This document shows positions 35,421-39,593 of a stretch of DNA of 45,482 nt, piece by piece. Made by a program: the position numbers and the translations under genes. The stretch is from Phycisphaeraceae bacterium. Its GTDB lineage: Bacteria > Planctomycetota > Phycisphaerae > Phycisphaerales > Phycisphaeraceae. Position 1 is the first letter of the stretch. Each line of letters opens with the position of its first letter. The stretch spans positions 1 through 45,482 of the forward strand of contig JANQKT010000107.1 in assembly GCA_028280965.1 (NCBI GenBank), given 5' to 3'. The notes beneath the pieces were generated by a model. It was given only the letters and a program-made list of their open reading frames with translations, was not told where the DNA came from and ran no database searches.

Positions 35421-36314
35421 GTGGAACCTACCCAGGCCCTCGAGCAATGGTTTGAACAGGCCGATCAGTCGCTGCCGGTGCTGACCGTCACAGCGCGTTG
35501 GTGCGTGTTCGGCTTGGGCGTGGTGCTCTGGCTCGCCGGTGGGCGGCTGCTCAAGGCCGCCTGCATCCTCGGCGGGGCGATGCTGGGCATGATTGTCGGC
35601 GGGCTGTCGCTGGCGTTTGTCGAGTCCGTCGCCGTCGGTATCGGCTTCATGATCGGGCTGGGGATGCTCGGGGCGCTTGGGGCATGGCTGATGTTTCGCG
35701 CGTGGGTCGCGTTGGCGGCGGCGGTCGTGTTCGCCATTGCTTCGCCCGCTGCGGTGATGGTCTGGCAGGGCGCACCCTCGGATGAACTAGCTGAAGACAC
35801 GCAAGAGGCCGCGGCGCAGATCGAAGAGCGCTACAACGCCGCGGTCGATCAGCTCAGCGAAGAGGCGCAACTCGAAGTCCAGTCGCTGATCCAGCAAGGC
35901 GACGCTGATGCGCTCCAGGAAGCCGACGCGATCTTGCAGGAGCAAGGCGAGAAGGCGTACCAAGCGGCGCGCGAGATCGTCTTCCGCAACCTCGAAGATG
36001 TGGAGGCCTGGTGGCAGTCCAAGGACTCGGCCGGCGTCCGCACGATCGGCCTGGCGATGCTGATCGGCGGCGGGGTCGGCTTCCTGCTCGGCTTCCTGCT
36101 GCCGACCCACGCGGCGGCGATGCAGTCGGCGATCGTTGGCGCGGTATTGATCGTGATCCCCGGCCGGGAGCTCTTGGTGTCTTACGTGCCTGGTGTAGCG
36201 GATTTAACGCCCACCACCGCCCGCGGAACACTGATCACGATCGGTCTGATAACGATCATCGGCATGGTGCTTCAATGGACGCTGTATCTGCGTCGCGACG
36301 ATAAGCAGGCTTAG
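35421..36314 (+). CDS. Multi-pass membrane protein with helical insert, first of a tandem pair
   Basis: A 297-residue integral membrane protein. About four membrane helices (roughly 22-110) are followed by an 85-residue soluble, glutamine- and glutamate-rich helical segment (DELAEDTQEAAAQIEERY, VQSLIQQGDADALQEA), then about three more helices (214-290). The seven-helix plan and glycine-rich helices resemble the TMEM198/DUF4203 family, a tentative match. The start is GTG at 35421 with GGAGA just upstream. The next gene encodes a paralogue of the same plan, 54 nt later. Confidence 0.75.
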   Translation: MEPTQALEQWFEQADQSLPVLTVTARWCVFGLGVVLWLAGGRLLKAACILGGAMLGMIVGGLSLAFVESVAVGIGFMIGLGMLGALGAWLMFRAWVALAAAVVFAIASPAAVMVWQGAPSDELAEDTQEAAAQIEERYNAAVDQLSEEAQLEVQSLIQQGDADALQEADAILQEQGEKAYQAAREIVFRNLEDVEAWWQSKDSAGVRTIGLAMLIGGGVGFLLGFLLPTHAAAMQSAIVGAVLIVIPGRELLVSYVPGVADLTPTTARGTLITIGLITIIGMVLQWTLYLRRDDKQA

Positions 36315-36368
36315 CCGCCGAAACGCGTGTGCTGTTGCGCATGCATCGGCGGACACAGGAGCCTAGCC

Positions 36369-37238
36369 ATGCTGACCACGCTTGCGCAGACCGCTTCCGA
36401 CTCATCCCCGGCCGAGGCGTCCGAAGCCGCCGCGGCGGCCGCCGACGGACGCACCATCGACCTCTGGGCCGAGGCGCACCACGTCTTCTCGACGAGTGTC
36501 GAGATCTTCTCGCGTGGCGACACGCTTGCCAAGCCCGACGAGCTGATCCCCGAGCTCGCGCAGCTCGGCACGATCTGGGCGCTGGTCTTCGTCGTGATCG
36601 GTATGATCTGCCTGCTCAACGGCTACAAGTTCCACAAGGTGCTGACGGTGGCGCTGCTGGTTGTTGTCGGGGCACTGCTGGGCTATTGGATGGGGCTGGA
36701 GATCTCCGGCCCGCCGTTTGTGGTTGCCGGCTGCGTCGGGGCCCTGCTGGCGGTGCTGTCGTTCCCGCTGATGAAGTTCGCCGTCGCGGCGCTCGGCGGG
36801 CTGTCGGGCGCGTTTATTGGCGCCAACCTCTGGGCCGGGTTTGGCCGGGTGATGGACAAGGCCGCCGCCGACCGTGTTGCTGCGCAGGGTGAAGAAGCCG
36901 CTGCGGGAGAGCTGATCGTCAAGGCCGCCAACGCCATGCCCGCGGACGCGTTCTGGATCGGCGCGCTCGTCGGCCTGGTGGTCTGCGGGATCGCGGCGTT
37001 TGCACTCTCGAAGATCACGATCCACCTGTTCACATCCGTGAGTGGCTCGACCATCGCGGTCTTCGGCGCGATCGCCCTGCTGCTGTCGATCGACGGCACC
37101 CGCGAGACCGTCGCCAACGAGCTGAGCAGCAGCGCGTTGATCATCCCGCTGCTGGTCTTCGTCCCCGCGGCGATCGGCTTCCTGCTCCAGGAGATGTCGT
37201 CCGGCGGCCTCGGCGAGAACAAGGCCGCGGCGGCTTAG
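36369..37238 (+). CDS. Multi-pass membrane protein, second of a tandem pair
   Basis: A 289-residue integral membrane protein with the same plan as the gene before it: an N-terminal tail, about four glycine-rich helices (AQLGTIWALVFVVIGMICLL to GGLSGAFIGANLW), a short soluble loop (MDKAAADRVAAQGEEAAAGE), then about three helices. The two align by eye around WALVF/WCVFG, NGYKFHK/GGRLLKA and GALLAVL/LGALGAW. ATG 36369 has an AGGAG site 7 nt upstream. Its stop overlaps the stop of the convergent exported protein gene by 3 nt. Function unknown; transport or envelope structure is possible. Confidence 0.75.
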   Translation: MLTTLAQTASDSSPAEASEAAAAAADGRTIDLWAEAHHVFSTSVEIFSRGDTLAKPDELIPELAQLGTIWALVFVVIGMICLLNGYKFHKVLTVALLVVVGALLGYWMGLEISGPPFVVAGCVGALLAVLSFPLMKFAVAALGGLSGAFIGANLWAGFGRVMDKAAADRVAAQGEEAAAGELIVKAANAMPADAFWIGALVGLVVCGIAAFALSKITIHLFTSVSGSTIAVFGAIALLLSIDGTRETVANELSSSALIIPLLVFVPAAIGFLLQEMSSGGLGENKAAAA

Positions 37239-37807
37239 CGGCGGCTCGACTCTTTTGCTGCTTCCCAGGCCCGGCTAAAACCCGGGCCTGTTTCATAAAG
37301 CAGCATGAATCGAAACAACGCCCTGCCGTCTTCATCGCAGACGATCAACCCGCGTTGCGGGCCGTTGGCCGGCTTGTCGATCAGCCACAGGCTGTGCAGG
37401 TCGCTGTCGCGTAAATCAACGGCCAGGCCCGCGCTGCCGATATGCAGGGATTCGGGCGATGGCATCGTCAGGCCGATCCCTTCGGCTTCGTAGGTGACGC
37501 GGTGTTCGCCGTCCTGATAACGCAGCTGCACCTTTCCCCACGTGGACATGTCGGTGAGCAGCGGACGCCACTGGTCACGCGGCACTTCGCGGCACTTCGA
37601 TTCCGGCAGTGCGGCAAGCACCGCGGCATCCGAGACGCCCAGACGCCCTGCCAAAACGCCGATCGGTATCCTCGGGTTTTCTTCAATCAACGACCGGACC
37701 CGCTGGATGTCCTGGTCTGTTGGTTCGGTGACGGCACAGCCCGGGCCGAACACGAGCAGAAGCAGTGCCGTAATGCGGCAGATGTGAAGGAGCCTCGGTG
37801 CTGGCAT
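37235..37807 (-). CDS. Exported ChuX/HutX-like protein
   Basis: A 190-residue protein. The core LAGRLGVSDAAVLAALPESKC (about 51-71), DMSTWGKVQLRY (about 86-97), and DSDLHSLWLIDKPANG to ALFRFMLLYE closely follow the order and spacing of HutX/ChuX heme-utilisation carriers. Unlike those cytosolic proteins it has a signal sequence (ITALLLLVFGPGC), with a possible lipid Cys24 although GPGC is not a perfect lipobox. Whether it binds heme is not known; conserved heme ligands are not certain here. The ATG at 37807 follows TATGCT by 6 nt. Confidence 0.65.
   Translation of the reverse strand: MPAPRLLHICRITALLLLVFGPGCAVTEPTDQDIQRVRSLIEENPRIPIGVLAGRLGVSDAAVLAALPESKCREVPRDQWRPLLTDMSTWGKVQLRYQDGEHRVTYEAEGIGLTMPSPESLHIGSAGLAVDLRDSDLHSLWLIDKPANGPQRGLIVCDEDGRALFRFMLLYETGPGFSRAWEAAKESSRR
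37266..37293 (+). terminator. Terminator for the tandem membrane protein genes
   Basis: A perfect 9-bp GC-rich stem (37266-37274 with 37282-37290) with a 7-nt A-rich loop followed by TTTCAT lies 28 nt past the stop codon. It is inside the last codons of the convergent gene. Confidence 0.6.
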
Positions 37808-37862: not shown

Positions 37863-39467
37863 TTACTGGTGGGGGAGGCGAACAGTCTTGCTCTCCGCGT
37901 TCAGCGAGGGGCCTGCGACGGTGACCGTGAGATCGCGATCGCCGACCGTGTCGAGCGAGATCGTGGCTTGGCCGTTTTCATCAAGTGCCTGGACGGTATA
38001 CCCGCCGCCCTGCTGCCAGACGCAGACGCGTGCGCCAGGGTGATTGCCGAGGTTGGTTTTGAGCTGCAGCTCGACGCGGGCCTTGTCAACCGTCACTCTG
38101 GTGACGCCCGTTAACCGAGCCTGCAACCCGGCATCCACAACCCGCTTCGCCCGCATGCCGAGCGTCGGATCGCCCAGCAGGTTCAGCTCGCACTGGCACC
38201 AGTGATACCCCGCGGTCTTCTCGGCGTGCATGGCCATCTCGGCCTTCATCGCGACAAACGCCTCGCCGACCGTGCGGTACGTGCCGTCCTCCTTCGGCGA
38301 CAGGCCGTTCATCCAGAACCGTGTCATCGACTCGGTCGTCCCGTCCAGCTTGCCCTCGGTCACCATCAGACGGAAGTCCTCCCGCGGGTTGTGGAAGATC
38401 GGCACGCCCTCGCGCGACGGGCAGACGATCGCGACCGCGCCTTTAATCGGCGCGCGCAGCATCGTCTCGACGATCGTCGGGTCCTCCTTCGCGTCGTACA
38501 TCCCGGTGAAGCACGACACGGTCGTCATCACCAGGTACGCGTCCTCGTTGGTCAGCTTCTCGACGATCCTGGCGTCGCAGCGCGTGTGCCCGCCGTCGTC
38601 TTCGAGGACCCAGTACCCGGGCATGCCGTGGCCGTGCATGTGCATCTTGCTCGCGGACTTCGCGTTGATGCGCTCGACCCAGTTGCTGGTCTTCAGCGAA
38701 TAGTCGCCGCGTTTCTCACCATCCCAGGGCGTCTCGGTGTGGAAGAAACGCAGGGCCTTGCCGCCCTCCCACGACTTGGACAGGTAGTCGTCCCAGCTCC
38801 GCCGAACCTTCGGTTCGGAGTGATCGACGGTGTTGGTGTAGAGGATCGTGTTGGCGAAATCACCTCCGGGGTACTTCGTCTCGTAAGCGATCACCTTGTC
38901 GGTGTAGGCCGCGACGTCATCCGCGGTGCGCAACGGGATACGCCCGAGCGATGCGCCGCTGGGGTGCGTGTACTTGATCGCATCCTTGTCGTTGTTCCAA
39001 TCGCCGAACACGCCGTCGTTGTTCGCGTCCCAGTCGAATTTGCCGGGGCTGAGGTAGTAAAGATCGGTGGGGATGTCCTTGTAACCGAAGCCGGGCATGG
39101 GAGAATGCGGGCTGTCGCGGTCCGGGACCAGGCCGCCGCCATCGGGCCAGGTCCCGGGGGCGCTGTCGCCGCCGAGGATGATGTAGTACGTTTCATGGTT
39201 CTCGACATGGTCGAGCACGCAGGCGCGGATCTTCGCCTGGATGTCTCCGCCCTCGTACTTGGCTTCGATCGTCTGGACGGTGGTGACCTTCGTCGGCAGG
39301 CCGATCTGGGTCTTGAACGCCGCGAACGGCTCCCAGGCCTCGGCCAGGGTTTCGTCGGTGATCAGCAGGACGGTAGGCGGCACGCCTTCGGGCAGTTTGT
39401 CGGCCCGCACCTCGGCGTTGTGGCTCACCAGCAGGAACAGCATGACCAGGGGGAGCAGTTCTCGCAT
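37863..39467 (-). CDS. Exported C25-family (gingipain-type) cysteine peptidase
   Basis: A 534-residue exported peptidase. The signal peptide is MRELLPLVMLFLLVSHNAEVRA. The catalytic His is in MHMHGHGMPGYW (His280 or His278) and the catalytic Cys is Cys319 in TVSCFTGMYD, the order and setting of MEROPS C25. Acidic calcium-like loops occur at DWDANNDGVFGD (145-156). The C-terminal 85 residues form an Ig-like beta domain. The long propeptide of gingipains is absent. The ATG at 39467 has a GAGGG site. It is divergent from the alpha/beta hydrolase-like gene; the gap 39468-39620 holds both promoters. Confidence 0.85.
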   Translation of the reverse strand: MRELLPLVMLFLLVSHNAEVRADKLPEGVPPTVLLITDETLAEAWEPFAAFKTQIGLPTKVTTVQTIEAKYEGGDIQAKIRACVLDHVENHETYYIILGGDSAPGTWPDGGGLVPDRDSPHSPMPGFGYKDIPTDLYYLSPGKFDWDANNDGVFGDWNNDKDAIKYTHPSGASLGRIPLRTADDVAAYTDKVIAYETKYPGGDFANTILYTNTVDHSEPKVRRSWDDYLSKSWEGGKALRFFHTETPWDGEKRGDYSLKTSNWVERINAKSASKMHMHGHGMPGYWVLEDDGGHTRCDARIVEKLTNEDAYLVMTTVSCFTGMYDAKEDPTIVETMLRAPIKGAVAIVCPSREGVPIFHNPREDFRLMVTEGKLDGTTESMTRFWMNGLSPKEDGTYRTVGEAFVAMKAEMAMHAEKTAGYHWCQCELNLLGDPTLGMRAKRVVDAGLQARLTGVTRVTVDKARVELQLKTNLGNHPGARVCVWQQGGGYTVQALDENGQATISLDTVGDRDLTVTVAGPSLNAESKTVRLPHQ

Positions 39468-39593
39468 CAAAAAACCCTCATGGATCGTTGAGCCGTGCAA
39501 GGCGGGTAAGTCAGTCACCGGCCTGGAGCCTGTCCTACGCCGTTTGGTGTACGCCGGTTCAGCGTTTGATCGATCCGGCCGAACCGCCGATAT

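Follow-up and report, generated by a model that had tools for sequence, protein, structure and literature searches.

The question raised by this locus, which lies in a 45,482-nucleotide stretch of Phycisphaeraceae DNA that was analysed as a whole and is called the window here, is what a protein of the ChuX/HutX heme-carrier family might do if it is sent out of the cytosol. The initial annotation had described a protein that retains the family's core sequence pattern but starts with an export signal and a possible lipid cysteine. Our main reading, to which we give a probability of about one half, is that a HutX-fold protein has been re-targeted to the envelope in one genus, where it would most likely be a lipoprotein that acts as a membrane-anchored adaptor or binds a ligand, rather than a carrier of heme. 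The features on which the argument draws are these:

36327 to 37238, plus strand: convergent membrane protein without a Pfam match, a synteny anchor outside the proposed system.
37235 to 37807, minus strand: gene of the putatively exported HutX/ChuX-fold protein, 190 aa, recognised by its ORF, PF06228, fold and orthologues.
37736 to 37807, minus strand: codons 1-24, predicted signal peptide with the candidate lipobox cysteine C24, from the sequence and from a C-AVTEP motif invariant in three of three orthologues.
37583 to 37735, minus strand: codons 25-75, conserved linker AVTEPxDxDxxRVR and N-terminal helical module, from identities and model helices.
37238 to 37582, minus strand: codons 76-190, beta-sheet domain (the heme-pocket domain of HutX) with the signature lost, from the alignment and model strands.
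37863 to 39518, minus strand: peptidase family C25 gene, PorU-related (PF01364, 154.8 bits; NF033707, 46.9 bits against a cut-off of 420).

The ChuX/HutX-like identity first proposed is upheld by PF06228 (ChuX_HutX), which matches residues 53-181 with an E-value of 3.5e-11 and 43.6 bits against a cut-off of 25. The orthologues in genomes G001 and G002 (loci L002 and L003) score 30.3 bits, above this cut-off, and 18.4 bits, below it, the latter match covering the N-terminal part only. Against TIGR04108, the HutX equivalog, the window protein reaches 31.1 bits for a cut-off of 110, a shortfall that is only partly informative since the canonical HutX L008 also falls short (70.1) and L012 passes (179.7). 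Sequence comparison alone puts the window protein closest to the solved structures 2ph0, 2hqv and 5exv, all of the ChuX/HutX type. An AlphaFold model built from 20 sequences, canonical HutX rows included, reaches a middling pLDDT of 73.3, and its best match is HutX 5exv, both in Foldseek (E 1.7e-10) and in VIA-align (Z 15.5, 3.4 A over 149 residues); its predicted helices lie at residues 31-43, 49-56 and 60-66. Because that first alignment held canonical HutX, a second model was made from the three orthologues only, and at its low confidence (52.5) the first 21 Foldseek matches are HutX, ChuX and HemS-type proteins, with a best E-value of 4.3e-8. Judged by profile and predicted model, the protein is a true HutX/ChuX homologue with a HutX-type fold. 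A chance Pfam match by way of the helix-turn-helix was rejected for the window protein, because the match spans to position 131 of the 134 in the profile and the fold is recovered when canonical rows are left out.

The ORF runs exactly from 37235 to 37807 on the minus strand, as first drawn, and is complete, with 190 codons for amino acids and an ATG at 37807. Residues 1-23 read MPAPRLLHICRITALLLLVFGPG and are followed by C24, giving a short basic N-region and a hydrophobic core without an acidic residue that ends in G-C24. The only in-frame ATG, GTG or TTG codons before residue 60 are ATG1, GTG19, TTG40 and TTG52, and a start at GTG19 or later would remove the signal. Such a mis-set start was rejected because the divergent orthologues of two other species, in G001 and G002, retain full hydrophobic N-termini that end in C-AVTEP as in the window protein. 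The export signal and possible lipid cysteine are therefore borne out as a sequence feature in three of three orthologues, and the start that would have taken the signal away did not materialise. The lipobox itself reads GPGC in the window protein, with proline at -2, and TSGC and GSGC in the orthologues; proline at this position departs from the usual lipobox pattern (PROSITE rule). The suggestion that the protein acts in the periplasm or at a membrane is thus carried, as a predicted location, by the conserved signal and C24, but the lipobox proline is unusual. A cytosolic location, which belongs to HutX, is at odds with the hydrophobic N-terminus and C24 kept in the orthologues, and an extracytoplasmic, probably lipid-anchored HutX-fold protein, with predicted export and lipidation, is supported. 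Promoter and terminator scans around the lipoprotein gene gave nothing above chance.

The claim that the core sequence pattern is kept did not survive alignment A3, which sets the three lipoproteins beside 17 canonical planctomycete HutX. A3 and the 17-row counts do not include the two-domain HemS-like L013, L014, L017, L022, L024 and L025, the HemS-like duplicates L027 to L029, the fragmentary L026, L030 and L036 (the last being the same place as L062) and the later finds L062, L063 and L067; in L009, where an earlier start with a hydrophobic stretch exists, the start aligning with L006 was chosen. The canonical stretch F-S..G..F-N.Q....D-M-H is gone from the window protein, which keeps none of its nine signature columns between 114 and 131; G001 keeps one and G002 none, and each column is kept in 14 to 17 of the 17 canonical rows. 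The histidine column holds H in all 17 of these rows; D131 takes its place in the window protein and F in G002, and G001 has H. It aligns with H98 of ChuX chain 2ovi, which we take to be a heme-binding residue, and a pairwise phmmer alignment with 2ph0 also sets D131 against that histidine. E107, G110 and G112 are retained in the window protein, which anchors the alignment just ahead of the signature stretch; in the sheet columns beyond these anchors the alignment is less sure. H122 adjoins the old histidine position but is unconserved among the orthologues. Loss of the canonical pocket signature is what the alignment shows, and the TIGR04108 score (31.1 against 110) points the same way.

A heme function of the exported protein is, on this evidence, unsupported. 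It could be argued that the protein is an extracytoplasmic heme chaperone that is handed heme by an outer-membrane receptor, or protects it in cytochrome assembly, by means of relocated ligands: heme can be bound via residues other than the canonical histidine, the key column is still occupied by H in G001 (a point against our main reading), and the HutX fold is retained in the predicted models. Two TonB-dependent receptors and at least one FecCD permease (one strong match) are also encoded in the window genome, but on other contigs, and the canonical signature and histidine are lost and unconserved among the orthologues. Nearby heme-uptake genes did not turn up: none of the heme-uptake families was found among the 10 window ORFs scanned around the lipoprotein gene, and importer and receptor protein queries had no match in the window. 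For comparison, two of the eight canonical neighbourhoods tested carried heme-uptake genes, L076 and L079 each with a FecCD permease, an ABC ATPase and a binding protein, and L076 also with a HutW-like radical SAM protein (329.6 bits, cut-off 400). No second PF06228 gene was found in the window genome. As the motif and a histidine present in 17 of 17 canonical rows are lost and no heme-uptake gene is nearby, the heme chaperone, one of the two roles first put forward, is weakened and in our view unlikely, and the other, a new ligand, or no ligand, seems to fit the sequence better.

What has been conserved in the protein bears on this choice. The window protein is 28-29% identical overall to its orthologues in G001 and G002, and all three lipoproteins share C-AVTEPxDxDxxRVR directly after the hydrophobic N-terminus. 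Codons 24-75 are 44-83% identical among the three, against 22-43% in the sheet, and for the helical module taken by itself (residues 31-75) the three pairwise comparisons of orthologues give identities of 38, 38 and 80%, where the sheet gives 24, 22 and 43%. Over 136 pairs of canonical proteins, sheet identity averages 15 points above that of the module, with a range from 43 more to 10 less. Constraint thus appears to have moved to the linker and helices, the reverse of most canonical pairs, though with only three sequences in the lipoprotein group this contrast rests on few events. Between G001 and G002, codon positions 1, 2 and 3 differ at 7, 6 and 20 of 52 codons in codons 24-75 and at 47, 46 and 77 of 117 in the sheet, the third-position excess being smaller in the sheet; the adjoining membrane protein is 74% identical between the same genomes. 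In a tree into which L062 and L067 were also taken, the three lipoproteins form one clade (support 100/99) on a long stem of 5.82 changes per column, and its attachment is unreliable because long branches meet there.

The same pattern of conservation can be set against the idea of an envelope carrier for another small molecule, such as a tetrapyrrole, a lipid or some other hydrophobic ligand, held in a remodelled sheet cavity. The models do keep a HutX-type sheet while the pocket residues have changed, as such a carrier would have it. The sheet is, however, the least conserved part of the protein (22-43%) and no invariant polar pocket residue stands out in the three orthologues, which counts against a specific ligand, since this would be expected to conserve its site; we think a dedicated carrier improbable. 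The alternative within our main reading is that functions were swapped, the auxiliary helical module becoming the working, membrane-anchored adaptor part and the heme domain a free scaffold, and this we offer tentatively, as a suggestion that may well be wrong.

Within one Phycisphaerae genus, the exported form was found in three of the five genomes. Matches to profile A2 came from 7 of 397 class, 6 of 392 phylum and 6 of 51 family genomes (samples that overlap); the matches read outside the genus are canonical HutX, and no exported copy was found outside it among these family, class and phylum genomes. A single-protein scan of GTDB genome contigs gave no relatives, the profile A2 scan of these contigs gave only L038, which is the G002 contig (labelled Phycisphaerae bacterium isolate 4_bin.8), and that of viral contigs gave none. 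PF06228 matches were present in 7 of 121 relatives, 15 of 392 phylum and 9 of 397 class genomes, again in overlapping samples. Canonical HutX is itself patchy in the phylum, as the 15 of 392 genomes with PF06228 indicate, and G005 has two PF06228 copies, one of them (L012, TIGR04108 179.7 bits) above the HutX equivalog cut-off.

Within the genus, the lipoprotein gene lies in all three genomes in the order prephenate dehydratase, two membrane proteins, lipoprotein, C25 peptidase, alpha/beta hydrolase, UbiD and DoxX, with the C25 gene missing there in G002. In G003 the membrane proteins and the C25 gene are present and the lipoprotein is absent, the genes that flank it elsewhere being 98 bases apart, and profile A2 found no copy elsewhere in that genome (89% complete), nor any match in G004 (70% complete).

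The tandem membrane proteins at 35421-37238 have no Pfam or NCBIfam match and adjoin prephenate dehydratase in the genus; similar pairs occur in four other genera of the family, and they therefore represent a conserved unnamed pair. Just beyond the end of the convergent membrane-protein gene, and inside the last lipoprotein codons, a very stable hairpin with a seven-base loop can form at 37256-37305 on both strands (RNA fold -28.2 kcal/mol, z -5.0); on the plus strand its inner stem is followed by UUUC. It may be a terminator of the convergent membrane-protein gene, embedded in coding sequence.

The C25 peptidase, a stand-alone protein that resembles PorU of type IX secretion (46.9 bits against the cut-off of 420), is encoded on the strand of the lipoprotein gene, upstream of it with 55 bp between the two, and is a possible operon partner. 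That the lipoprotein exists as partner, chaperone or inhibitor of this peptidase in one operon would accord with this spacing and with the pair being kept in G000 and G001, but the linkage is found in these two genomes only and the genes do separate: G002 has the lipoprotein without any C25 match in its genome, and G003 has C25 without the lipoprotein, which makes this role very unlikely. Nor is there much to be said for a decaying, functionless HutX paralogue retained by chance, as fast sheet evolution and absence from G003 at an intact syntenic site might suggest, against the intact ORFs in three divergent species, the third-position excess in codons 24-75 (20 versus 7 and 6) and the invariant lipid linker.

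We therefore return to re-targeting to the envelope: having gained an export and lipid signal and lost the usual heme-pocket residues, the protein has probably taken on a new role in the envelope. We propose that, in one Phycisphaerae genus, a cytosolic-type HutX/ChuX was redirected to the cell envelope, that it would be exported by Sec and lipidated at C24, and that the AVTEPxDxD linker would tether it to the membrane. The N-terminal helical module would then be the constrained working surface, probably contacting another envelope protein, and the sheet could now serve as a scaffold or bind something other than heme. If re-targeting is true, a HutX fold occurs outside the cytosol without the heme signature, as a small natural experiment in which a cytosolic carrier became an envelope protein; it would also urge caution in transferring heme function by family match, as automatic Pfam-based annotation could label this exported protein a cytosolic heme carrier. 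The reach of the finding is limited, in that it concerns one genus only, as far as searched, known here from genome assemblies.

Considering known systems, our literature search, with subscription journals mostly outside its scope, found no exported HutX in print. The domain fold is common to HemS, ChuS and PhuS, with Z from 12.4 to 13.6 to the predicted model (4cdp, 2j0r, 2j0p, 7qxv, 4mf9, 4mgf and 1u9t) and 8.8 for 4imh of the same group; these are two-domain proteins, unlike the window protein. Members of that group are cytosolic and some are heme-degrading enzymes. Closer to home, the canonical planctomycete HutX (for example L008, L012 and the L079 neighbourhood) are homologous and occur in other genera of the same family; the 17 that were aligned are without a hydrophobic N-terminal signal (their starts were chosen by hand) and, unlike the window protein, retain the signature and histidine. 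The predicted model resembles HutX of Vibrio cholerae from end to end (5exv; Z 15.5 to 5exv_B) and also ChuX of E. coli (2ovi, 6u9j; VIA Z 14.0 to 2ovi_C), and the N-terminal helical module and Pfam family are common to all of these. HutX is described as a cytosolic heme carrier in passages of two reports (PMC12670364, PMC6775658), and ChuX, ChuS and HutX are termed cytosolic in a passage of a third (PMC10404700). In contrast to HutX and ChuX, the window protein has an export signal and a cysteine to follow it, and its pocket lacks the F-N and H positions.
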